Shown: one piece after another, positions 24,204-35,108 of the stretch
How the letters are laid out: every line of letters begins with the position of its first letter
Numbering within the stretch: position 1 is the first letter of the stretch
Assembly: GCF_040530035.1 (NCBI RefSeq)
Contig: NZ_JBEWCD010000002.1
Span: forward strand, 2,277,793-2,341,792
Direction of reading: 5' to 3'
DNA from: Roseibium sp. HPY-6
GTDB lineage: Bacteria > Pseudomonadota > Alphaproteobacteria > Rhizobiales > Stappiaceae
DNA: 64,000 nt
Translations under genes and position numbers: made by a program
Notes under the pieces: model-generated
The model's input: only the letters and a program-made list of their open reading frames with translations
The model's database searches: none
What the model was told of the DNA's origin: nothing

Positions 24204-25199
24204 CTACCCGATCACCCATATGCCCGCGAGAACGAAGAGAGCCAAAAACACCGTTTGCGTCACCAGCATCCAGATCGCCGGGCCGCCGACTTCAAGAAGT
24301 TTCGGGATCGACGTTTTCATGCCGACTGCCGCAATCGCCGCCAGCAAGGCCCAACGGGACACCTGACCGGCCAGTTCCTTGGCCGTTTCGGGTATGAGGC
24401 CGAAGGAGTTGATGGCCGCCAGGATCAGGAAAGCGACCACGAAAAGCGGCATGAGCGGTGGCCGGGCGGATCCGACTTCGCTCGCACTGCGCAAGATCAG
24501 GGCGGCTATGAGAACGAGAGGCGCCAGAAGCGTCACCCGGATCAGTTTGACGAGTGTTGAAAGATCGCCTGTTTCGTTCGAGATCGAGAAGCCTGCTCCG
24601 ACCACCTGCGCAACATCGTGAATGGTTCCGCCCAAAAAGACGCTGGTTGCATCGACCGAGAGGCCGAGGCTCGCGGTTAGGATTGGATAAAAAATCATGG
24701 CGAGTGTCGACAGAACGGTCACGGTAATGACCGTGAAGGCAAGGTCGCGTTCGGCGTTTTCCCGCTTTGGAAGTATCGAACCGATCGCCATTGCGGCAGA
24801 CGCACCGCAGATCGCGACAGCGCCGCCCGACAGAAACGAAAACAGCCGGTCTTTTCCGAAAAAACGTCCGATCAGCAGGGAAAAGCCGATGGTTGCGAGG
24901 ACACCAAGAATGACCAGCAGCAGAAACGGCAGCCCTAGCGCCTGGACCATATCTATGCTGATCCGCACGCCGAGCAAAGCGACACCGATGCGCAACAGCG
25001 TACGTGCCGCGAATGCGATTCCGTCTGACGTGCGCGGCTCCTCTGACAGGAAATTGAGGGGCATGCCGAGCAGGATCGCCATCAGCATGGCAGGCGCGCC
25101 ATAGTGCTCATTCAGAAACTGGGCGGAGATGGCGACAAGGCCGGCAATTGCAATGCCGGGAAAAAGCTGATTTGCCCGGCTCTTTAAAGCTTTGATCAT
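24204..25199 (-). CDS. YeiH/UPF0324-family membrane protein (putative sulfate/sulfonate exporter family)
   Basis: A 331-residue protein with about ten membrane helices. It matches the YeiH family (PF03601): LFPGIAIAGLVAISAQFL, MAILLGMPLNFL, LLRIGVALLGVRIS, the Gly/Ala-rich GGAVAICGASAAMAIGSIL, and FLGGTIHDVAQVVGAG. A few members have been linked to export of sulfonated or sulfur compounds, but the family is mostly uncharacterised. It ends on the minus strand and lies just downstream of the MauG-like gene (11-base gap), so the two may be co-transcribed. About 2 kb beyond begins the proposed sulfonate operon, whose sulfite product would need an exit route. That link is speculation. Confidence 0.85.
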   Translation of the reverse strand: MIKALKSRANQLFPGIAIAGLVAISAQFLNEHYGAPAMLMAILLGMPLNFLSEEPRTSDGIAFAARTLLRIGVALLGVRISIDMVQALGLPFLLLVILGVLATIGFSLLIGRFFGKDRLFSFLSGGAVAICGASAAMAIGSILPKRENAERDLAFTVITVTVLSTLAMIFYPILTASLGLSVDATSVFLGGTIHDVAQVVGAGFSISNETGDLSTLVKLIRVTLLAPLVLIAALILRSASEVGSARPPLMPLFVVAFLILAAINSFGLIPETAKELAGQVSRWALLAAIAAVGMKTSIPKLLEVGGPAIWMLVTQTVFLALFVLAGIWVIG

Positions 25200-25210: not shown

Positions 25211-26533
25211 CTACGGTCGGTCGACCGGAAGACCGCTTGGTACGCTCTCTGGTATGCCAAAGGGCGGTTCGGAAACGGACCTTGTACCCGTCAGTGCCTT
25301 CAAGAAGGCGACGAGGTCTGCGATTTCACGGTCGGTGAGGGATATTGGCTCGATATCCCTGAAGCGAGCATGTCTTGCCATTTCGCGTTTGTCGTTGAAG
25401 ACCACGAAATCAATAGGTTCCAGCCACGGTGCCTCCGGGAGGTTTGCCATATCCGGTTGCCAGCTTTCAAGCATCGCGTGTGAGTCCAGATGATGACGGA
25501 CAATGCCTTCAAGTGTCGGGTAGGCACCGTTGTGTCCATAAGGAGCCGTCAGTTCAACGTTTCGCAACATGGGCGTGCGGAACCGGTAGGCGTCCTCGAG
25601 CCTGTCGCTTTCACCCATGCGCCCCACATCGCGCACCATCGGGTCAAACCGCCGGGTGCGGCCCGGACCGAACGGCGGCAGGCCGAGCGCGTGGAATTTC
25701 TGATCGCTGAGAAGTTGGCCGGAATGGCAGCTCGCGCAGTTGGCCTTGCCGTAGAAGAGGTCCAGTCCGCGTTTCTGCTCAGCCGATAGTGCGTTGTCGT
25801 CGCCGGAAAGAAACTGGTCGAACGGGCTGTCGAAGCTTGTCCACTCAATGGCCTGGAAAGCCGCGAGGGCGTTGGCGATTTCTGAAATAGTGACCTGTGC
25901 GGGCTCTTCGATATGATCAAAGGCCTCGACGAACAACTTTCCGTATTCCGGGATGACCCGGACCCGTTTGGCCAGAATCGGCCAGGACGCATCAATCCGG
26001 TCGTGAACAGCGCCGGCGATTTCGTTTTCCTTCGGGTTGCCGGCCATCTCGAACTGGGCGACCAACGGGAAAATGGCCTGGGCCCCCAGCAGCGTTTCGA
26101 GCCCCTCGGGCAACCATTCTTCTGCGGGTGAATTGAAGCCGTTCTCATAGTCATCGGAAATCGAAAGGCGGCCGTCGTGAAACAGGGTGTGAAGCTCTTT
26201 TGCGCCTAGGTTCCAGAGGCCTGGAGCATTTCTCGGAATCCGTTTCTTAATCCTGTTTTCAGCGACGAGGGCGGTCCGGTGCCGTCCAAGACCTTCGCCG
26301 CCTTCACCGATCCCGAGAGAAAGCCCGTCACCGGTCCCAAGAGACGGATGATGGCAGGTCGCACAGGCAATATTCCTGTTTCCCGAGAGAATCCTGTCGT
26401 AAAAGAGGAGTTGGCCGAGTGCGGCCTGCTTCTTGTCGAATGCGATGAAATCGTCTTCGTTCAGGGGAGGCGGCAGGTCTGCTGCAAGTGCTGGAGCGGA
26501 CAGAAAAACAACGAGTGGGATTGAACGAAACAG
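25211..26533 (-). CDS. MauG/CcpA-like dihaem cytochrome c peroxidase family protein
   Basis: A periplasmic dihaem protein of about 440 residues. Two CXXCH haem motifs are visible: NIACATCHHPSLG near the N-terminus and ANCASCHSGQLL in the second half. The typical second-domain block FRTPMLRNVELTAPYGHNGAYPTLEGIVRHH is present. This is the MauG/cytochrome c peroxidase pattern; MauG-like genes often assist copper or quinone enzymes. A signal peptide (LFRSIPLVVFLSAPALAA) starts exactly at 26533, but no ATG, GTG or TTG lies in frame near it. CTG at 26533 is the only plausible start, one base from the divergent Sel1 gene's ATG. The frame is open up to 27025, but that part mirrors the Sel1 gene. Confidence 0.8.
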   Translation of the reverse strand: MFRSIPLVVFLSAPALAADLPPPLNEDDFIAFDKKQAALGQLLFYDRILSGNRNIACATCHHPSLGTGDGLSLGIGEGGEGLGRHRTALVAENRIKKRIPRNAPGLWNLGAKELHTLFHDGRLSISDDYENGFNSPAEEWLPEGLETLLGAQAIFPLVAQFEMAGNPKENEIAGAVHDRIDASWPILAKRVRVIPEYGKLFVEAFDHIEEPAQVTISEIANALAAFQAIEWTSFDSPFDQFLSGDDNALSAEQKRGLDLFYGKANCASCHSGQLLSDQKFHALGLPPFGPGRTRRFDPMVRDVGRMGESDRLEDAYRFRTPMLRNVELTAPYGHNGAYPTLEGIVRHHLDSHAMLESWQPDMANLPEAPWLEPIDFVVFNDKREMARHARFRDIEPISLTDREIADLVAFLKALTGTRSVSEPPFGIPESVPSGLPVDRP

Positions 26534-27016
26534 ATGAAGAAGACGCTGACCGCCGCCCTGATCGGATGTGCTCTTATGGCGGTACCGGCCAAGGCCGAAA
26601 TTGAAGCCGCCCGCGACCTGATGGAGGCCGGACAATTCGAGGAGGCGCGCAAGGAGCTTTGGCCGGCCGCGCGCTCCGGCAATGCGGATGCCGAGGAACT
26701 CATCGGCGTCATGTACGCCATGGGGCTCGGCGTTGAGCGGGACGATCAACGGGCTTTCGAGTGGTATCTCAGGAGTGCCATGAAAGGGCACCCGGGCGCT
26801 CAATCCGGGATCGGCTGGTACTACGAAGTCGGCAGAGGCATGCCCGCACCGGATCTCGTGCGCGCCTACATGTGGTACACGCTGTCGGCGATCGGGGGCG
26901 ACCCCGACGCTGCGATCTCGCTGGAGGAGGTTGTGAAGAAAATGACCAAGGAAGAGATCGAAAAGGCGCATATTCTGGTCGATGATTACAAGGTCTGGAT
27001 GTATCCGTTCCGGTGA
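26534..27016 (+). CDS. Sel1-repeat secreted protein
   Basis: A 160-residue exported protein with a clear signal peptide (MKKTLTAALIGCALMAVPAKAE). Two to three Sel1-like repeats follow: ARDLMEAGQFEEARKELWPA, then NADAEELIGVMYAMGLGVERDDQRAFEWY, then HPGAQSGIGWYYEVGRG. Sel1 repeats are helical protein-interaction scaffolds in the periplasm or envelope. The start has no good ribosome site (GGGAUUGAACGAAACAG precedes the ATG). It begins one base from the presumed start of the divergent MauG-like gene, so its promoter must lie inside that gene. Partners unknown. Confidence 0.85.
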   Translation: MKKTLTAALIGCALMAVPAKAEIEAARDLMEAGQFEEARKELWPAARSGNADAEELIGVMYAMGLGVERDDQRAFEWYLRSAMKGHPGAQSGIGWYYEVGRGMPAPDLVRAYMWYTLSAIGGDPDAAISLEEVVKKMTKEEIEKAHILVDDYKVWMYPFR

Positions 27017-27220: not shown

Positions 27221-28279
27221 TTAGTTCAGGTCGGCGTCGCGTGCGCCGTTGATGTCGGTTTCAGCTGCCTGGACGGCTTCTTCCAGAGCACCGAAGATCT
27301 CACCACCGCGGGCGACATTCGACTTGAACCAGTCATAGACCGGAGAAGCGGCTTCCTTGAAGGCAGCCTTTTCTTCAGGCGTCGGCACATAGAGATCACC
27401 GCCACCGGCGACAAAATCTTCGTAAGCCTGGATGGACTTGCGCTTCGGCGAAGCGAACGTTGCCTGCTGAAGGGCATAGAAGCCGTCCACAACGACACGG
27501 CGCATGTCTTCCGGCATGGAGAGGAACTTCTCGTTGCTCATCCACCACAGCGCGCCCATGTAGGCGTGGCCGTCAAGCGTGACATATTGCAGGCCGGCAT
27601 CCGGGAACTTCATGCCCATGATGTCGGTGATGCCGTTCTTGGAGCCTTCGACAACACCGGTCTGGAAGGAGGTGAACAGTTCCGGCCACGGAATCGGCGT
27701 CGGAGAGGCACCGAGTGCCTTGACCAGTTCCTGCGGAAGGTCAGCTACAACGGTCCGGATCTTCAGGCCTTCCATGTCGGCAGGAGCTGCTACACGGCGC
27801 TTCGTATTGGCAAAATTCCGCCAGCCACCGGTGTTGCCGACCGTCATCAGGCGGATCGTGTTGTCGGAATCTTCAAGAGCCATGCCGCGCATGGTCCGGA
27901 CGAAGTCACCGGAAAGAACGTGCTCGGCGATACGGTCGTCGGACATCATGTAGGGCAGGTCGAGAACCTGCACATACGGGAAGATGCCCGAGGCACCGCC
28001 CGAGGTGGAGATGTAGATGTCGATGGCACCGCCTGCGACACCCTGAAGACATTCCGCGCCGTTCGAGCAGAGCTGTGTGCCAATGAAGAGTTCAACTTCG
28101 ATCGCGCCGTTGGATGCGGCTTCCACGAAGTTCTTGAAAACGACAAGACCGTCATAATCCTCGTCGTTCTCGTTGGAGTTTGCAGTTGCGCGCAGCGTGT
28201 AATCTGCGGCAACGGCACTCAATGACGATCCGGCAAGCATTGCCGCGACAGTGAGTGTTTTAAGGGCAGATTTGAGCAT
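27221..28279 (-). CDS. TRAP transporter solute-binding protein (DctP family), SMO-linked
   Basis: A 352-residue periplasmic binding protein with signal peptide (MLKSALKTLTVAAMLAGSSLSAVAA). It has the DctP core: IEVELFIGTQL, IDIYISTSGG, LKIRTVVADLPQELVKALGASPTPIPWPELFTSFQTGVVEG. R175 in LKIRT is the family's conserved ligand-anion arginine and could equally hold a sulfonate. C71 and C77 are close enough for a disulfide. It closes the six-gene minus-strand operon, 27 bases after dctM. By context it should capture the substrate of the monooxygenase, possibly sulfoquinovose or its glycerol glycoside; this is inference, as DctP proteins bind many organic acids. Confidence 0.9.
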   Translation of the reverse strand: MLKSALKTLTVAAMLAGSSLSAVAADYTLRATANSNENDEDYDGLVVFKNFVEAASNGAIEVELFIGTQLCSNGAECLQGVAGGAIDIYISTSGGASGIFPYVQVLDLPYMMSDDRIAEHVLSGDFVRTMRGMALEDSDNTIRLMTVGNTGGWRNFANTKRRVAAPADMEGLKIRTVVADLPQELVKALGASPTPIPWPELFTSFQTGVVEGSKNGITDIMGMKFPDAGLQYVTLDGHAYMGALWWMSNEKFLSMPEDMRRVVVDGFYALQQATFASPKRKSIQAYEDFVAGGGDLYVPTPEEKAAFKEAASPVYDWFKSNVARGGEIFGALEEAVQAAETDINGARDADLN

Positions 28280-28306
28280 CAGGTACCTCCCATATTAAGC
28301 TCAAGA

Positions 28307-29797
28307 TCAGTTGGCAAATCCGGTCAATCGAGGGATCGTCATCGAAAGTGCCGGTATGTAGGTGATCAGGAAGATCACCGCGATTTCTACCGCCAGGAAC
28401 GGCAGAATAGCCTTGGCGATGGTTTCAACCCTTTCCTTTGAAACCGACGCTGCAACAAATAGGACCAGTCCCATGGGCGGTGTCGCCAGACCAATGGTCA
28501 GGTTCACGCTCATGATGATCGCAAAGTGAATGGGATCAACGCCCAATTCCACAAAGATTGGCCCGAGGATCGGTCCGAGAATGATGATCGCCGGGCCCGC
28601 GTCCAGGAACATGCCGACGATGAACAGCAGCAGGTTGATCAGGAACAGCAGGATTAGCGGGTTTTCAGACAGCGACAGCACGAAATCCGCCATGATCTGC
28701 GGTGCGTAGCTGAGGCTGACAACGGTCTTGAACGCCATGGCAGCTCCCACCAGCAGCAAAACCACGGCAGACGTGATCCCGGCTCTGTTCAAGATGCCGG
28801 GAATTTCCTTCACCTTGATGGAGTGCAGCACGAAAAAACCGATAATCAGGGCGTAGGCCACAGCAACTGCCGCGGCTTCCGTCGGCGTGAACACACCGAT
28901 GAGAATGCCGCCAAGAATGATGATCGGCGTCTGCAGCGGGGCAACGGCCTTCTTGCATACCATTCTGAAATCGTCTGAAACGGCTCCGCGCAGACCCATC
29001 AGAATGAAATGCGAAATGCCCAGAAGCGCGACGAATAGGATTGCCGTTGTGCCGCCAGTGAGCTCGAGCGATGTCTGACCGACAATGCCGAAAGCGATGG
29101 CAATCAGCACGGATGCAAGGTTGATCCTGAGCAGGGCAAACGACACCCAGTACTCAACAGTCGCCATTTTCTGACCCGGGTTCACGATCCTCTGGGCCTT
29201 GGGCAGATCGTACTTATCCGCCATGAGACGGACGACGAGCATGAGGCCGACGCCGACCATCACGCCGGGCACGATGCCGGCGAGGAAGAGCGCAGCCACG
29301 CTCTCACCCATGACATAGGCGTAAATGATCATGATGCCGGACGGCGGAATGATCGGCCCGATGACCGAGGAGGCTGCCGTAACAGCCGCGGCGAACCGGC
29401 GGGTATAGCCCTGTTTTTCCATCGCCGGGATCAGCATCGAGCCAAGCGCAGATGTGTCGGCAACGGCCGAGCCGGAAAGGCCTGCAAAGAGCATCGAAGA
29501 CAGGATGTTCACGTGCGCCAGACCGCCGCGCAGGTGTCCCATGAGCGCCTGGCTGAATTCCACAAGTCGGGTCGTGATGCCGCCTTTGTTCATCAGCTCG
29601 CCGGCGAGCATGAAAAATGGAATCGCCATCAGAGGAAAGCTGTCCATGCCGTTGTAAACGTTACGGTAAAGCAACGTGATGTCGCGTTCTTGTCCGCTCA
29701 TCCACAACAGGATGCCCGGTGCTGCGAGCAGACCGAAAAAGACCGGCAGGCCGATCATCAGGAAGAACAGGAAGACGGGGAGGAACCAGATCAGCAT
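28307..29797 (-). CDS. dctM: TRAP transporter large permease subunit (DctM)
   Basis: A 496-residue inner-membrane protein with about twelve helices, the ion-coupled transport subunit of a TRAP system. Marks are LAGELMNKGGITTRLVEFSQALMGHLRGGLAHVNILSSMLFAGLSGSAVADTSALGSMLIPAM, IGPIIPPSGIMIIYAYV and, near the C-terminus, VNLTIGLATPPMGLVLF. It starts on the last base of dctQ (coordinates share 29797), so the two are translationally coupled, and dctP follows 27 bases on. It belongs to the operon headed by the flavin monooxygenase. Confidence 0.94.
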   Translation of the reverse strand: MLIWFLPVFLFFLMIGLPVFFGLLAAPGILLWMSGQERDITLLYRNVYNGMDSFPLMAIPFFMLAGELMNKGGITTRLVEFSQALMGHLRGGLAHVNILSSMLFAGLSGSAVADTSALGSMLIPAMEKQGYTRRFAAAVTAASSVIGPIIPPSGIMIIYAYVMGESVAALFLAGIVPGVMVGVGLMLVVRLMADKYDLPKAQRIVNPGQKMATVEYWVSFALLRINLASVLIAIAFGIVGQTSLELTGGTTAILFVALLGISHFILMGLRGAVSDDFRMVCKKAVAPLQTPIIILGGILIGVFTPTEAAAVAVAYALIIGFFVLHSIKVKEIPGILNRAGITSAVVLLLVGAAMAFKTVVSLSYAPQIMADFVLSLSENPLILLFLINLLLFIVGMFLDAGPAIIILGPILGPIFVELGVDPIHFAIIMSVNLTIGLATPPMGLVLFVAASVSKERVETIAKAILPFLAVEIAVIFLITYIPALSMTIPRLTGFAN

Positions 29798-30387
29798 CAG
29801 TCAGCCCCCGCCATGTCAGCATCCGGAATGGCCGGCAGGCGATCGTCGCCGCCAACGATTGAAATCACGCTTCGAAGAATGAGCTCAATGTTCACCAGGG
29901 TGAGGAGAACGACCCCAACCAGAAGCGACATCATCATCCAGCTTCTCGGCACGCGGATCCATTCCGTCAAGGTGAAATTGCCCGGTACATAGAGGGACGC
30001 GGTCGCAAACTTGCCGCCGAAGCCGGTCACCTCTGCATAGCCGATCTGCACGGCGATCACGAGAACAAGGAGCGAGATAAGCAGCAGAAAGAGCGAGAGA
30101 AGCCGTCCAATGGCTTGGGGCAGCGCATGACCGAGCATGTCGATCGCCACGAACCCGCCGCGCCGGAAGGCGGTTGGCGCCATGAGCCCGGTCATCCACA
30201 ACATGCAAAAACGCGCCGCCTCGTCAGGCCAGGGCAGCGCGTTGTTGAACACGTATCGGAAAACAACCTGAATCAAGATCGCAATGACCATCAAGGCCAC
30301 CGCAACGATGCCTATCGCCCGGCCTATCCGCAACAGCTGCGAATTGACGTAGGCGAGCGGTGCAAGAACCGCCAGCAATGCCCCCAT
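29797..30387 (-). CDS. dctQ: TRAP transporter small permease subunit (DctQ)
   Basis: A 196-residue protein with four membrane helices. The DctQ signature FRYVFNNALPWPDEAARFCMLWMTGLMAPTAFRRGGFVAID is present, followed by a long loop and a fourth helix (MMMSLLVGVVLLTLVNIEL). The C-terminal tail is polar. It lies 58 bases after the flavin reductase and overlaps dctM by one base, forming one operon with the monooxygenase genes. Confidence 0.92.
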   Translation of the reverse strand: MGALLAVLAPLAYVNSQLLRIGRAIGIVAVALMVIAILIQVVFRYVFNNALPWPDEAARFCMLWMTGLMAPTAFRRGGFVAIDMLGHALPQAIGRLLSLFLLLISLLVLVIAVQIGYAEVTGFGGKFATASLYVPGNFTLTEWIRVPRSWMMMSLLVGVVLLTLVNIELILRSVISIVGGDDRLPAIPDADMAGAD

Positions 30388-30445
30388 ACGGGCTCCTCCC
30401 TAGTACTTCTTATCCGACCGGGCGATTCCGTCCGACCGTGTGCTC

Positions 30446-30961
30446 TCATTCTGGAGCGATTTGTCCGAGTTTGCCTGCAAAAAAAGTCAGCGCCTCCCCG
30501 TGGCGCATTTCTGCCTGCATGACCTGACCCAAGACTATCAGGTGATCGCCGCCTTCATAAGCAGCAAAACGCTTGCATTCGAAACGGGCAAGGCAATGCT
30601 CGATCAGCGGCACACCGTTTTCATCGATGGTGTGCGGCAGCTGGTCGAAGGCGTGTGCATTGCGCACAAAGCCGTTGCATACCTCAGCCTGATGATGACT
30701 GAGAACATGAATGGCGTAGTTTTCTGCCGTTTCGAAATACTGGAACCGGCGCGAACCTTTGTCCGGCATCCAAAGAACAAGCGGCGGATCAAGCGAGACG
30801 GACGAAAAGCTGTTGGCGGTAATGCCGACGGGTCCGTCATGTGACCCTGTGGTGACGACGGTCACCCCTGTGGCAAAACGGCCGAAGGCGTCGCGCAGGA
30901 GCCGGGTGTTTTCGGTATGCGGTTCAAAGGTAACGGGATGATTGGCATTTTGCATGGTCAT
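30446..30961 (-). CDS. smoA: NAD(P)H:FMN reductase (SmoA-like partner of the monooxygenase)
   Basis: A 171-residue flavin reductase of the HpaC/RutF type. The flavin-binding core reads LRDAFGRFATGVTVVTTGSHDGPVGITANSFSSVSLDPPLVLWMPDKGS, followed by YAIHVLSHHQAEVCN. Such enzymes supply FMNH2 to two-component monooxygenases, and one is encoded two genes upstream. Its start overlaps the stop of the aldo/keto reductase by one base (TGATG). The order monooxygenase, aldo/keto reductase, flavin reductase matches the sulfo-SMO genes smoC, smoB, smoA of Agrobacterium, which desulfonate sulfoquinovose. The family is secure; the SmoA role is inferred from context. Confidence 0.72.
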   Translation of the reverse strand: MTMQNANHPVTFEPHTENTRLLRDAFGRFATGVTVVTTGSHDGPVGITANSFSSVSLDPPLVLWMPDKGSRRFQYFETAENYAIHVLSHHQAEVCNGFVRNAHAFDQLPHTIDENGVPLIEHCLARFECKRFAAYEGGDHLIVLGQVMQAEMRHGEALTFFAGKLGQIAPE

Positions 30962-31851
30962 CAGGGTACCTCGTTTCCAAGGGCGGCTTCATAGAGCCGG
31001 TACCAGGTTTCACGATCAAGGGTGACTTTCAGCGCGTCCGAGATTTTCGCGATGCGGTCAGGGTTGTTCGTTCCCATCACCGGCAGCAGTTTTGCAGGGT
31101 GAGCGAGAAGAAACGCGACCGCGACGGCAGACCTGTCGACGCCAAATTGCGCGGCAATCTCGTCAAGAACTTCACCGAGTTTCCCGCTTCCGGAGACTAA
31201 GGCGCCGCCGCCGAGCGGGGACCATGCCATGAGCTTGGTGCCAAGACGCTGATGAAAGGCAAGATCGCCATTCGTGAACGGAGAAATCTCCGCCAGCGAT
31301 ATTTCAATCTGGTTCGTCACGAGCGTGTTGGACATGGCGGATTGCAGCAACTCCCAGTCCCACGGACGGAAATTGGAAACGCCGATGTTTTTCACCTTGC
31401 CGCTTTTGACCAGATTGTCGAGCGCAGCGCCGGTCTCATGGTGATCCATGAGTGGGTCCGGACGGTGAATGAGCAACAGATCGATCGTTTCAATCCCCAT
31501 GTCGCTCAGCGAATTTTCAACCGATCTGTCGATATGCGCGCGCGACGTGTCGTAGTATTTCACCTTCGCATCCGCGTATCGGCCAACCGGGGCGACGATG
31601 TCGCACTTCGTGACGATCTCCATGCTGTTGCGCAGGGACGGATTGGCTTTCAACGCGCCGCCAAGAACTGCTTCAGCAGCGTAGCCACCATAGATGTCAG
31701 CCTGGTCGAACGTGGTGATACCCTGGTCCAGGCACAGTTGGATTTTCTTTTCCACATATGCGGGCGACGTGTCCGCATCGTCGCCGAGCCGCCACATGCC
31801 ATAGATCAGACGGGAAAATTCCAGAGTGTCGGAGAGTTTGACACGTTCCAT
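30961..31851 (-). CDS. smoB: aldo/keto reductase (SmoB-like, proposed 6-oxo-glucose reductase)
   Basis: A 296-residue TIM-barrel aldo/keto reductase. The catalytic tetrad is visible: Asp and Tyr in TFDQADIYGGYAAE, Lys in EIVTKCDI, His in LLLIHRPDPL. The C-terminal cofactor region contains LPVMGTNNPDRIAKISDAL. In the sulfo-SMO pathway, SmoB reduces 6-oxo-glucose, the product of sulfoquinovose desulfonation, to glucose with NADPH; this role fits the neighbours. ATG at 31851 overlaps the monooxygenase stop by one base (TAATG). The frame runs on to 32082, but that would lie inside the monooxygenase gene. A general aldo/keto reductase of another sugar pathway remains possible. Confidence 0.72.
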   Translation of the reverse strand: MERVKLSDTLEFSRLIYGMWRLGDDADTSPAYVEKKIQLCLDQGITTFDQADIYGGYAAEAVLGGALKANPSLRNSMEIVTKCDIVAPVGRYADAKVKYYDTSRAHIDRSVENSLSDMGIETIDLLLIHRPDPLMDHHETGAALDNLVKSGKVKNIGVSNFRPWDWELLQSAMSNTLVTNQIEISLAEISPFTNGDLAFHQRLGTKLMAWSPLGGGALVSGSGKLGEVLDEIAAQFGVDRSAVAVAFLLAHPAKLLPVMGTNNPDRIAKISDALKVTLDRETWYRLYEAALGNEVP

Positions 31852-33005
31852 TAGCGGCGGACTCCATTGCCAAGCGGGGTTGCAGGTGTTTCGGCCGGAA
31901 CGCGGCCATAGGCGTGGGGCAGGGAGCAGGTCTTCAGGTTCGGTAAGACGCGCGCCCCGAAATGCTTTGCCTCTTCGATGTGCGGGTAGCCGGAGAAGAT
32001 GAACGCGCGAATGCCCATCTTCTGGTAGGCCTCGATTTTCGACATGACCTGGTCGGCAGAGCCGACAAGCGCGGCACCACATCCGGACCGGGCCCGGCCG
32101 ACACCTGTCCAGAGGTTCGACTCTATGTAGCCGAATTCGTCTGCAACTTCCCGGTTCTTTGCCTGATGGCTGACGCCGAGCGACTTTGCGTCGAGGGCGC
32201 GTTCACGAATGGCCGTACCCTGAACGTCGTCCAGCTTCGAGACGATATAGTCGGCATATTCCTGCGCTTCTTTTTCCGTGTCTCTGACAATCATGTGGAC
32301 GCGCAGGCCGTAATCGAGTGTGCGGTCGTATTTCTCCGCAACCTCGTTAACCGCCTTCATGCGGCCTTCAAGTTCCTCGATCTTTTCAGGCCACATCAGG
32401 TAGACGTCGCAGTGCTGTCCGCACAGCTCAAGCGCCGCCGGAGAGTAACCGCCGAAATAAAGCAGCGGGCCGCCCGTCTGATAGGGTCTTACCGGATCTG
32501 TCGTTAAACCCTTGAAGTTGTAGATTTCGCCTTCGTAGTTGATCTCATCCTGTGTCCATGCCTGTTTCAGGATTTCGACAACTTCGCGCGAACGCTGGTA
32601 GCGGTATCCGCTGTCGGCCTGTTCCCCCGGAAAGTCCGAAGAAATGATATTGACCGTCAGCCGGCCTTCCAGCATGTGGTCGAGCGTTGCGATCGTACGG
32701 GCAAGCATGATCGGCTGCATTTCTCCGCAGCGCACAGCTGCAAGCAGATTGATTTTCTCCGTGATCGGCGCGCAGCCGGCAACGAAAGAGAGCGTGTCCT
32801 GACCGACCTGATAGGACGACGGGCACAGGATATTGCGAAAACCTTGTTCTTCCGCGGTTGTCACAATCTCCGAGCAATGCTTCCAGGACGAGCGCAAGTC
32901 ACCTTCCGGAAACCCCAGAAACTGGTAGTCGTCCGAGCACAACGCGGAGAACCAGGAAACTTCCGCTGCATCGAGGTCCGGAGATGTCACTGGGACAACA
33001 GTCAT
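31851..33005 (-). CDS. smoC: FMNH2-dependent (luciferase-like) sulfonate monooxygenase, SmoC-like
   Basis: A 384-residue bacterial-luciferase-like monooxygenase related to the alkanesulfonate monooxygenase SsuD. Blocks are FRNILCPSSYQVGQDTLSFVAGCAP, INLLAAVRCGEMQPIMLARTIATLDHMLEGRLTVNIISSDF, GYRYQRSREVVEIL, GPLLYFGGYSPAALEL and ALVGSADQVMSKIEAYQKMGIRAFIFSGYPHIEEA. SsuD-type enzymes release sulfite from sulfonates using FMNH2 and oxygen. The two genes downstream encode an aldo/keto reductase and a flavin reductase, as in the sulfoquinovose cluster smoABC, which favours a sulfoquinovose substrate over simple alkanesulfonates. It heads the six-gene operon that ends with a TRAP transporter. Substrate is inferred, not seen. 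Confidence 0.72.
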   Translation of the reverse strand: MTVVPVTSPDLDAAEVSWFSALCSDDYQFLGFPEGDLRSSWKHCSEIVTTAEEQGFRNILCPSSYQVGQDTLSFVAGCAPITEKINLLAAVRCGEMQPIMLARTIATLDHMLEGRLTVNIISSDFPGEQADSGYRYQRSREVVEILKQAWTQDEINYEGEIYNFKGLTTDPVRPYQTGGPLLYFGGYSPAALELCGQHCDVYLMWPEKIEELEGRMKAVNEVAEKYDRTLDYGLRVHMIVRDTEKEAQEYADYIVSKLDDVQGTAIRERALDAKSLGVSHQAKNREVADEFGYIESNLWTGVGRARSGCGAALVGSADQVMSKIEAYQKMGIRAFIFSGYPHIEEAKHFGARVLPNLKTCSLPHAYGRVPAETPATPLGNGVRR

Positions 33006-33184
33006 TCATTTTCTCCCTGGAGCCGCCTGCACTGGTTCTGACGCAGGTCGCGGGCTCTAACTCATTCAAATCGATCTGTTTTCAGCAGCTGGACCGCGAA
33101 CGATCGGGGTGATTTCGGATCTGGGTTTCGTTTGATTTCGAACGGGTTCACTTTACCGTCGATTTATTCTTGCTTATCATCCGC

Positions 33185-33200
33185 ATTGATGTAAATCAAT
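33185..33200. promoter_or_regulatory. candidate GntR operator between smo operon and regulator
   Basis: ATTGAT-GTAA-ATCAAT is a perfect 6-base inverted repeat, followed at 33203-33210 by a related half site, GTATCAAT. It lies 36 bases before the GntR start and about 180 bases from the monooxygenase start, in the only intergenic gap between the two transcripts. Confidence 0.5.
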
Positions 33201-33236
33201 AGTGTATCAATTTAAAAGCCAGGCCGCCCGAACGCC

Positions 33237-33947
33237 ATGCAATCATCGTCGCAGACCTCAAATGCGCTGCCGCTCTATTTGCAGATCAGTGAGCTTCTGA
33301 TCAGGGATATTGCCGCCGGACGACTGATCGATGGAGAGCGTCTGCCACCTGAACGCGACATGGCGGATGAATTGGGTATTTCCATCGGAACGCTCCGAAA
33401 GGCGCTTGCCGACCTTACGGAGAAAGGCTTACTCGAACGGGTCCAGGGTTCGGGGAACTACATACGCCAGGGCCGTACTCAGCAGAGCATCTACGCGATG
33501 TTCCGGCTGGAGCTCCTGAGCGGAGGCGGTTTGCCACGGGCTGACATCCTGAGCACGGAGCGTCTGCGGAAGCCGGACGAGTTTCCTGAGTTCGGCAAAA
33601 GTCCGGAAGGCACGCGGATCCGCAGGTTGAGATATCTCAACGATGTCGTGATAGCCGTCGAGGAAATCTGGCTTGACGGTGATGCGGGTTTTGTGAAACG
33701 AGACCTGCTTTCGGACTCCCTTTACAGGTTCTACCAGAAGCATCTCGGATTCTGGATCACGCGCGCAGAAGATCGTGTGACGATAGGAGAGGTGCCAGAC
33801 TGGGCTCCGCAGGATTTCACACTTGTGCCGGGGACAGTCACGGGTTTCATCGAGAGGTTCAGCTGGTCAGACCGGCCGGAACCGGTCGAATATTCACGCA
33901 CCTGGTTCGACACGAACAGGGCGCATTACGTACAGCGGTTGAAATAG
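33237..33947 (+). CDS. GntR-family regulator, HutC/UTRA subfamily
   Basis: A 236-residue regulator. The N-terminal winged helix is classical: LYLQISELLIRDIAAGRLIDGERLPPERDMADELGISIGTLRKALADLTEKGLLERVQGSGNYI. The C-terminal UTRA domain (about residues 90-235) contains RIRRLRYLNDVVIAVEEIWLD and EYSRTWFDTNRAHYV, where the effector binds. UTRA regulators usually sense sugars, sugar phosphates or amino-acid breakdown products. It is divergent from the monooxygenase operon and co-directional with the Gfo/Idh gene 36 bases downstream. It is therefore the probable local regulator of both arms, with an effector such as sulfoquinovose or a pathway intermediate. Confidence 0.9.
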   Translation: MQSSSQTSNALPLYLQISELLIRDIAAGRLIDGERLPPERDMADELGISIGTLRKALADLTEKGLLERVQGSGNYIRQGRTQQSIYAMFRLELLSGGGLPRADILSTERLRKPDEFPEFGKSPEGTRIRRLRYLNDVVIAVEEIWLDGDAGFVKRDLLSDSLYRFYQKHLGFWITRAEDRVTIGEVPDWAPQDFTLVPGTVTGFIERFSWSDRPEPVEYSRTWFDTNRAHYVQRLK

Positions 33948-33983
33948 GCGGGCCGCAAGAAGCCCGCCGTGAAGGAGACTTGG

Positions 33984-35108
33984 ATGCCTGCGAAGGTAAG
34001 ATATGGTGTTATCGGCTGCGGAATGATGGGACAGGAGCATCTGCGTAACATCGCGCTGCTGCCGGACACCGAGGTCACAGTAATATTTGAGCCCGACGCA
34101 GAGATGTCGGCGAAAGCCGCCGAGATCACCCCGTCGGCAAAATTCGTCTCCTCCGTCAGCGATCTCCTTGAGGTGGAGGAGTTGGACTGCATCCTGATTT
34201 CCAGTCCGAACCACTGTCATGTCCCGCAGATGCAGGAGATCCGACAAAAACGCCCGTTGCCGCTGCTTGTTGAAAAGCCGCTGTTCACGGACCCGAAGGA
34301 ACAGGCGGAACTTGAAGCATTCAAGGCGGCTTACCCGGCACCGATCTGGGTCGCGATGGAATACCGTTATATGCCGGCAATTGCCGCATTGATCGATCAG
34401 GTTGACGATGCGACGGGCGGCATCAAGATGCTGACGATCCGCGAGCACAGGTTTCCGTTCCTTGAAAAAGTGGGTGCCTGGAACCGGTTCAACCGCTACT
34501 CCGGCGGCACGTTTGTTGAAAAGTGCTGTCACTTTTTCGATCTGATGCGGCTGTTGATGAAATCCGAGCCGGTTCGCGTGATGGCGTCCGCCGGGCAGGA
34601 CGCGAATCACAAGGACGAGGTCTACGACGGCGAACAGCCTGACATTCTCGACAATGGCTATGTGATTGTAGACTTCGAGAACGGCGCGCGTGCATTGCTC
34701 GATCTGTGCATGTTCGCTGAAGGCTCGAAGTATCAGGAAGAGGTCGTCGCGATCGGGCCACAGGGAAAAATCGAGGCATTTGTTCCCGGTCCCAGCCGCT
34801 TCTGGCCGGAAGATCTAGGCGAGCCACCCGTCGCGCAGCTTGTCGTTTCGCCGCGCAACCCGAAAGGACCGCGCAGCATCGATATCCCTGTAGATCCGGC
34901 ACTGCTCGATGCAGGAGACCACAACGGGTCCACGTTTTATCAGCATGAACGTTTCGTGGCAGTTGTGCGCGGTGAAATCGCGTTGCCGGAAGTCTCCCTT
35001 GAAGACGGGTGGCGCGCTGTGGAAATGGGCCTGGCCGCTCAGCAATCCGCGCGTTCAGGTCAGGTTGTTTCGCTCTCTTCTCCTGGCGTTTCTTCGGTTG
35101 CCTGCTGA
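33984..35108 (+). CDS. Gfo/Idh/MocA-family protein; candidate NAD-dependent sulfoquinovosidase (GH188-like)
   Basis: A 374-residue protein with an N-terminal Rossmann domain (RYGVIGCGMMGQEHLRN) and the Gfo/Idh/MocA motif LLVEKPL. Its catalytic region reads NRYSGGTFVEKCCHFFDLMRLLM, with Lys and His in the usual places. Most relatives are sugar dehydrogenases. Some, including GH109 and the GH188 sulfoquinovosidases, use bound NAD+ to cleave glycosides. No GH31 sulfoquinovosidase is present here, and the gene lies next to sulfo-SMO-like genes, so a GH188-type role is attractive but unproven. ATG 33984 has AAGGAG 6 bases upstream. It follows the GntR gene and ends before a strong terminator. Confidence 0.75.
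   Translation: MPAKVRYGVIGCGMMGQEHLRNIALLPDTEVTVIFEPDAEMSAKAAEITPSAKFVSSVSDLLEVEELDCILISSPNHCHVPQMQEIRQKRPLPLLVEKPLFTDPKEQAELEAFKAAYPAPIWVAMEYRYMPAIAALIDQVDDATGGIKMLTIREHRFPFLEKVGAWNRFNRYSGGTFVEKCCHFFDLMRLLMKSEPVRVMASAGQDANHKDEVYDGEQPDILDNGYVIVDFENGARALLDLCMFAEGSKYQEEVVAIGPQGKIEAFVPGPSRFWPEDLGEPPVAQLVVSPRNPKGPRSIDIPVDPALLDAGDHNGSTFYQHERFVAVVRGEIALPEVSLEDGWRAVEMGLAAQQSARSGQVVSLSSPGVSSVAC

Follow-up and report, generated by a model that had tools for sequence, protein, structure and literature searches.

A stretch of 64,000 nucleotides from the genome of the marine bacterium Roseibium sp. HPY-6 (approximately 7.0 Mb; contig NZ_JBEWCD010000002.1, positions 2,277,793 to 2,341,792), here called the window, contains at positions 27,221 to 35,108 a gene cluster that we read as a complete sulfoquinovose monooxygenase (sulfo-SMO) operon for glycosides of sulfoquinovose (SQ), the sugar moiety of sulfolipids in plants and algae. 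In this operon, the tripartite ATP-independent periplasmic (TRAP) transporter DctPQM would import sulfoquinovosyl glycerol (SQ-glycerol) or SQ. We assign a probability of roughly 0.85 to this reading, which is carried by the similarity of the encoded enzymes to those of SQ metabolism, by the co-occurrence of DctP with SmoC across genomes and by the recurrence of the same importer beside genes of other SQ pathways.

Organization of the cluster

Six genes are transcribed from the minus strand in the order smoC (31851..33005), smoB (30961..31854), smoA (30446..30961), dctQ (29797..30387), dctM (28307..29797) and dctP (27221..28279), while gntR (33237..33947) and sqgA (33984..35108) are divergently transcribed from the plus strand. 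All eight genes were recovered where the first-pass annotation of this DNA had placed them, and a Pfam family was confirmed for each, including those of the small membrane subunit DctQ (PF04290), the large membrane subunit DctM (PF06808, with TIGR00786 above its cut-off), the solute-binding protein (SBP) DctP (PF03480), the GntR/UTRA regulator (PF00392 and PF07702) and the Gfo/Idh-type protein encoded by sqgA. The same annotation described the minus-strand genes as an operon with 1-base overlaps; the operon stands, as do the overlaps of one base at smoB/smoA and dctQ/dctM, whereas smoC and smoB overlap by 4 bases. Gaps of 58 and 27 bases separate smoA from dctQ and dctM from dctP, respectively.

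Predicted enzymes of the sulfo-SMO pathway

SmoC (384 amino acids; PF00296), predicted to be the FMNH2-dependent sulfoquinovose monooxygenase, scored 690 bits against the PDB entries 7olf and 7oh2, compared with 187 and 176 bits for alkanesulfonate monooxygenases and 102 bits for dimethylsulfone monooxygenase. We take 7olf and 7oh2 to be the SmoC structures of the sulfo-SMO work; their depositors named the chains methanesulfonate sulfonatase and alkanesulfonate monooxygenase. These names, the membership of the same luciferase-like monooxygenase superfamily and the best NCBIfam model, alkanesulfonate monooxygenase (242 bits, under its cut-off of 518), favor a general alkanesulfonate scavenger of the SsuD/SfnG type, with no role as an SQ enzyme. 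We consider such a scavenger extremely improbable, given the 690 bits to 7olf and 7oh2 versus at most 187 bits to SsuD-type chains and the location of the gene in an operon with SmoB and a sulfoquinovosidase. An SsuD/SfnG identity as such was rejected from the bit scores; a closer affinity to SsuD or SfnG had been named beforehand as the refuting outcome, and by score the monooxygenase is closer to the chains taken as SmoC.

SmoB (297 amino acids) scored 420 bits against 7bbz and 7bby and 206 bits against the next aldo/keto reductase (AKR). These two entries, labelled aryl-alcohol dehydrogenase in the PDB, are presumably the SmoB structures. The motifs FDQADIYGG, VTKC and LLIHRP, which we take to carry the Asp-Tyr-Lys-His tetrad of the AKRs, are all present, in agreement with the intact tetrad noted at first pass. 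SmoA (171 amino acids) belongs to PF01613, which confirms its earlier description as a flavin reductase, and its nearest PDB relative is the flavin reductase 4xhy (154 bits). Based on this family and on its position in the operon, smoA would encode the supplier of FMNH2. With SmoC and SmoB identified by their scores, the set of SmoC, SmoB, SmoA, the GntR regulator and DctQMP is a predicted sulfo-SMO operon, a firmer assignment than the one first given to the cluster.

A predicted GH188 sulfoquinovosidase

The Gfo/Idh-type gene, left uninterpreted in the first-pass annotation, is assigned here to SqgA, an NAD+-dependent sulfoquinovosidase of glycoside hydrolase (GH) family 188. Its product scored 535 bits against 8zn9, a record that names no function, 365 bits against 8qc2 and 358 bits against 8qc3, and 54 bits against the next Gfo/Idh relative in the PDB. 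The entries 8qc2 and 8qc3 are given as SqgA accession codes in PMC10755693. All eight residues that contact SQ in ArSqgA according to the available text of Kaur et al. (Lys107, Tyr136, Arg166, Leu170, Lys172, Glu189, His193 and His321) are identical in the window protein (K98, Y127, R156, L160, K162, E179, H183 and H313). The residues were mapped by hand from a pairwise alignment, with the chain position minus 13 giving the published number for all eight; the published Glu163, which is outside these eight, falls on no Glu at that offset. SqgA is predicted to fill the role of the GH31 sulfoquinovosidase.

Judged by eye, the N-terminus of SqgA (MPAKVRYGVIGCG) has no signal peptide; therefore, SqgA should act in the cytoplasm on a glycoside that enters intact, which makes SQ-glycerol the most likely cargo. 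The importer might instead take free SQ, with SqgA acting on other or minor glycosides. A Photobacterium DctP cluster, described below, has no SqgA match in the 21 kb examined, and some relatives may serve free SQ. Nevertheless, we regard free SQ as the less likely cargo in the window, since SqgA was found alongside DctP at 82 of the 85 SmoC loci that carry DctP in the census below, and since an enzyme that is NAD+-dependent by family and has no signal peptide implies that the intact glycoside should enter the cell.

A GH31 enzyme was rejected as the missing hydrolase. The lone PF01055 match in the genome (L315, on contig C5) is not like a sulfoquinovosidase by model scores, with 266 bits for the alpha-glucosidase MalA, 238 bits for alpha-xylosidase and 155 bits (cut-off 553) for PRK10426, which we take to be the YihQ model, all below the respective cut-offs. 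This GH31 gene adjoins a dehydrogenase-like gene and a gene that is DctM-like by eye, and another DctP lies approximately 3 kb away.

Co-occurrence of SmoC and DctP

We surveyed 345 genomes of one bacterial family, probably Rhodobacteraceae, with the DctP clade defined by an identity of at least 67%. SmoC was found in 147 genomes and the DctP clade in 123, with matches of 49-50% in two more. Both were present in 94 genomes, and in 89 of these the two genes lay within 7.04 kb; in the remaining five they were on different contigs, with SmoC approximately 3 kb or less from a contig end in four. SmoC occurred in 94 of the 123 genomes with DctP versus 53 of the 222 without it (odds ratio 10.3; Fisher test, 1.6e-21, a value that is descriptive because the species are not independent samples).

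At 140 of the 147 loci, the surroundings of SmoC were examined over approximately 9 kb to either side, or less where the contig ended sooner. GntR was found at 137 of them, SmoB at 135, SqgA at 133, SmoA at 124 and the DctP clade at 85. The order smoC-smoB-dctM-dctP on one strand was kept at all 84 loci holding the four genes, so the arrangement is not due to chance, and the same gene order was seen in Ruegeria TM1040, Ruegeria THAF33, Salipiger, Paracoccus seriniphilus, Roseivivax, Roseicitreum and Rhizobium SL42. The shared order in related genomes that the first-pass annotation had proposed to look for is therefore conserved in many of them.

The 55 SmoC loci without DctP consisted of 20 with matches to ABC (ATP-binding cassette) proteins of the Marinovum type, 14 of them to its SBP, and 35 with neither. 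A contig end was located less than 5 kb from SmoC at 10 of the 55, and a locus at which no importer was recognized is not the same as a locus without one. TRAP is the commonest recognized importer beside SmoC in the surveyed family (85 of the 140 SmoC loci, against 20 with an ABC match) and no oddity. Separately, the non-TRAP sulfo-SMO loci L198, L202, L219, L221 and L226 share a neighbour family (c28) after the smo genes, with c39, c27 or c38 in some.

In the taxonomic order of the window, SmoC was found in 17 other genomes of 346, 16 of them at an identity of at least 76%, and samples of 385 genomes from the class and 398 from the phylum yielded 21 and 24 matches (the window's genome counted). 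In a plasmid collection, SmoC was present at an identity of at least 75% in 11 records, ten of which have this TRAP set; in the eleventh, a Marinovum record, the importer is of the ABC sugar type. SmoC also accompanies DctP in each of the 10 records whose DctP match reaches 67% identity. A further 18 records have SmoC relatives below 60% identity, and the one examined, a Sphingobium plasmid, has a gene of the major facilitator superfamily nearby. On an SmoC tree of 143 rows, a quick tree with one long outgroup row, as is the DctP tree below, the TRAP label needs 34 changes, at least 7 of them on well supported branches; repeated exchange or loss of the importer is therefore probable.

DctP beside isomerase-type genes

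A TRAP set for SQ import would be expected to track SQ catabolism rather than SmoC. An isomerase of the SftI/SqvD type was searched for in 160 genomes, made up of all 29 that have DctP alone and 131 controls (45 carrying both genes, 26 carrying only SmoC and 60 carrying neither). It was found in 25 of the 29 DctP-only genomes, with identities of 45-100% (E 1e-126 or better; the 100% match is evidently the genome of the query itself), and at a comparable score in none of the 131 controls, which gave four weak matches of 30-32%. In 20 of the 25 genomes, the isomerase was located within 6.6 kb of DctP. Taken together, 119 of the 123 DctP genomes have one of the two SQ pathways.

SmoC lies in the available stretch at 61 of the 80 named DctP loci and is missing from it at 19. 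SqgA is present at ten of these 19, and all ten also have the isomerase and a LacD-type aldolase; a PfkB kinase was found at five, and some of the ten additionally encode a DeoR regulator, a 2-hydroxyacid dehydrogenase, an epimerase or an aldehyde dehydrogenase. The sole NCBIfam match of the isomerase is the sulfoquinovose isomerase SftI (279 bits, under the cut-off of 700), and no match was obtained in the PDB or, at E 1e-60, in the plasmid collection. The kinase, taken from one locus, has the sulfofructose kinase 7ag6 as its best PDB match (204 bits; next, 160), and the aldolase scored 310 bits against 8tnf, 141 bits against tagatose-bisphosphate aldolase and 65 bits against YihT. According to the available text of PMC9594981, the SqvD isomerase belongs to PF02952, YihV to PF00294 and YihT to PF01791, and hybrid clusters of the sulfoglycolytic Embden-Meyerhof-Parnas (sulfo-EMP) type have been reported. 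The isomerase, aldolase and kinase had no match at E 1e-15 in the 140 SmoC loci, and, at the loci examined, the SmoC-type and isomerase-type gene sets share only SqgA besides the TRAP genes and their MauG and TPR neighbours. A DctP tree was built with the 126 rows left after 173 had been thinned at 93% identity; in it, the eight isomerase-linked rows fall among the SMO-linked rows, with 6 changes, at least 2 of which are forced.

A third context in Photobacterium

The only DctP relative outside Alphaproteobacteria in the plasmid collection (E 1e-60) belongs to Photobacterium sp. DA100 (43% identity). The ten genes at this locus encode DeoR, a PfkB kinase with 39% identity to the kinase of the isomerase-type locus, a sulfolactaldehyde reductase (NCBIfam, 508 bits; cut-off 348), an epimerase, a membrane protein that is TauE-like by eye and matched no NCBIfam model, a homologue of YihS (701-704 bits to YihS chains; next, 137), a class II aldolase, DctQ, DctM and DctP.

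In Vibrio mediterranei AbY-1905, a ten-gene cluster is induced more than 20-fold by SQ, and deletion of its isomerase gene abolishes SQ use (PMC13372026). That cluster and the Photobacterium cluster have ten genes each, with the isomerase fifth in both when Photobacterium is counted from dctP. Proteins homologous to the Photobacterium DctP are recorded from many Vibrio, among them V. gigantis, a species to which that paper ascribes the hybrid pathway. The available text mentions SQ transport and names no TRAP genes; because of this, the match between the two clusters is suggestive only, and by analogy the V. mediterranei transporter may be of the same TRAP type.

Because a single importer family recurs next to three different SQ chemistries, its ligand is likely to be SQ or the glyceryl glycoside of SQ. 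The sulfosugar ligand proposed for DctP at first pass thus gains support from the genomic association with SQ pathways, while the ligand itself stands as a prediction. Additionally, we consider it fairly probable that these proteins form a dedicated TRAP importer family for SQ and its glycerol glycoside, exchanged as a module among sulfo-SMO, SftI/SqvD-type and YihS-type sulfo-EMP clusters, with the MauG and TPR proteins travelling along, and that this family is a principal route of SQ uptake in many marine Alphaproteobacteria.

The ligand of DctP

The closest named relatives of the window DctP are from Roseibium (99% and 96% identity), and its nearest paralogue in the same genome has 30% identity. 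Residue R175, which all 172 clade sequences have and which aligns with an Arg in 4p47 and 4ngu, is presumably the conserved anion-binding arginine of TRAP SBPs. Together with R175, the elements NTGGWRN, WPE, GVVEGxKNG, LDGHAYM and two cysteines form a signature that is invariant or nearly so in the 172 clade members, and K214 is found in 154 of them. The search for residues unique to SQ-linked DctP proteins gave none, as a Pacificitalea relative (48% identity) has the same signature; therefore, either the ligand there is related or the signature is broader than SQ.

Several observations weigh against the proposed operon and the role of its importer. Clade DctP is missing from 53 of the 147 SmoC genomes, and a Qingshengfaniella plasmid carries SmoC, TRAP and GntR genes with no SmoB, SmoA or SqgA annotated nearby in an incomplete gene table. 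Four genomes (G432, G608, G706 and G715) have clade DctP without SmoC, isomerase or SqgA, two of them being only 70-74% complete. Of the 19 named DctP loci without SmoC, the other nine lack both SqgA and the isomerase in the available stretch; L055 and L086 have SmoB or SmoA on short contigs, L016, L063, L089 and L094 span just 5-13 kb, and L018, L060 and L085 (17-21 kb) have clade DctP without SmoC, SqgA, isomerase or any tested SQ gene. The Pacificitalea DctP (L014) has no tested SQ genes in 14 kb, and one DctP of 49% identity (G532) comes from a genome without SqgA and the other tested SQ genes. In favor of the reading, another DctP of 50% (G592) has an SqgA-type gene (51% identity, one in-frame stop) 6 kb away. 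Among the enzymes, SmoA has no close solved relative in the PDB search, and the isomerase of Photobacterium has D-mannose isomerase as its best NCBIfam model (500 bits, under the cut-off of 600).

Part of this evidence would fit a cluster in which the sulfo-SMO enzymes are real and DctPQM imports a C4-dicarboxylate, a sugar acid or another sulfonate, with SQ entering by some other way. Clade DctP proteins are often labelled C4-dicarboxylate-binding in the source annotations, TRAP importers have been proposed for taurine and sulfolactate (PMC10507020) and for isethionate (PMC6386719) in the available texts, 55 of the 140 SmoC loci lack clade DctP, and L018, L060, L085 and L014 have the TRAP set with no SQ genes in the available stretch. 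Nevertheless, the TRAP clade tracks SQ catabolism across two otherwise distinct gene sets sharing SqgA, and the SBP of the Marinovum-type ABC importer was found at none of the 85 DctP loci versus 14 of the 55 others; both points argue for SQ uptake, and we judge a different cargo to be quite improbable.

Proposed mechanism

In the preferred reading, a sulfo-SMO operon with DctPQM as importer, DctP would capture SQ-glycerol (or SQ) in the periplasm and DctQM would import it using an ion gradient, as is general for TRAP systems. In the cytoplasm, SqgA, with NAD+ as catalytic cofactor, would release SQ from the glycoside. SmoC, with O2 and the FMNH2 provided by SmoA, would then split the C-S bond to yield sulfite and 6-dehydroglucose, and SmoB would reduce the latter to glucose. 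Both divergent units are probably under the control of the GntR/UTRA protein, acting at the conserved box described below. The sequence data give the identity, order and conservation of the genes, the conserved SqgA residues and the association of the importer clade with SQ pathways; what DctP binds, which way and by what energy the cargo moves, how the genes are regulated and what the enzymes do in this strain are predictions.

Intergenic box and conserved neighbours

An operator-like box conserved across loci is located in the smoC-gntR intergenic region (33170..33217). Its anchor was found in 174 of 194 such regions, and the sequence TTGAT-n4-ATCAA was exact in 88 of the 194 (79 of 145 TRAP loci and 9 of 49 others), with 0 expected by mononucleotide shuffling. 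The consensus TTGCgTAGCA-n-tTgATGTagATCAATaGTGTATCAATTTT occurs at TRAP and, less often, non-TRAP sulfo-SMO loci, and the composite pattern was absent from the seven isomerase-type loci checked. This box may serve as an operator for GntR or as an FNR/FixK-like site.

Downstream of dctP, a di-haem gene of the MauG/cytochrome c peroxidase family (25211..26620, minus strand, start uncertain; PF03150) and a divergent gene for a small TPR/SEL1-type protein (26534..27016, plus strand) were identified. The MauG-family gene was found at 50 of the 85 SmoC loci with DctP versus 4 of the 55 without it, and the TPR/SEL1-type gene at 52 of 85 versus 0 of 55; at the ten isomerase-type loci, they were present in nine and ten cases, respectively. 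Both genes go with the TRAP genes and not with SmoC as such. A downstream YeiH-type gene for a putative sulfate exporter (24204..25199, minus strand; PF03601) also occurs near the related plasmid clusters of Ruegeria TM1040, Salipiger, Rhizobium SL42 and Roseicitreum. It was found at only 10 of the 140 census loci, with no association with DctP (6 of 85 versus 4 of 55). Its product could export sulfite or sulfate; a role in the pathway is no more than possible.

Comparison with known systems

Sulfo-SMO, GH188, TRAP systems, the presence of GH188 in sulfo-SMO clusters and TRAP proposals for other sulfonates are already known. What appears to be new, within the limits of the literature searched, is a TRAP importer for SQ. 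None was found in that literature, which excluded figures, supplements and key Roseobacter and sulfo-SMO papers, so that an earlier mention is possible; the available parts of PMC11659671, PMC11968277, PMC6278857, PMC12133307, PMC12421959 and PMC10507020 contain no TRAP-type SQ importer, the last treating TRAP for taurine and sulfolactate, with sulfoquinovose only in its reference list. SQ is described as one of the largest organosulfur pools (PMC12890257). If DctPQM is its importer, many marine bacteria would take up SQ by TRAP and not by an ABC importer of the Agrobacterium type, the dctP clade would serve as a pathway-independent marker of SQ use in metagenomes, and proteins often annotated as C4-dicarboxylate-binding would be relabelled.

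Compared with other TRAP systems for sulfonates, the window DctP scored 96 bits against the isethionate SBP 8t9t; the cargoes known or proposed for those systems, isethionate (PMC6386719), taurine and sulfolactate (PMC10507020), are likewise sulfonates, but small and non-sugar. The hybrid sulfo-EMP cluster of V. mediterranei differs from the sulfo-SMO of the window in its SQ chemistry (PMC13372026). GH188 is near-universal in the sulfo-SMO clusters of Roseobacter (PMC10755693), with which the window shares sulfo-SMO together with SqgA; the transporter is unnamed in the available text of that paper, whereas in the window it is a TRAP system whose association was counted. With the sulfo-SMO of Agrobacterium, the window shares the SmoC/SmoB/SmoA chemistry, as far as its SmoC and SmoB are near the chains assumed above to be SmoC and SmoB. 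The two systems differ in uptake and hydrolysis: SmoABC is accompanied by an ABC importer and a GH31 sulfoquinovosidase in Agrobacterium, as described in the available text of PMC9594981, and by a TRAP system and the GH188 enzyme SqgA in the window.

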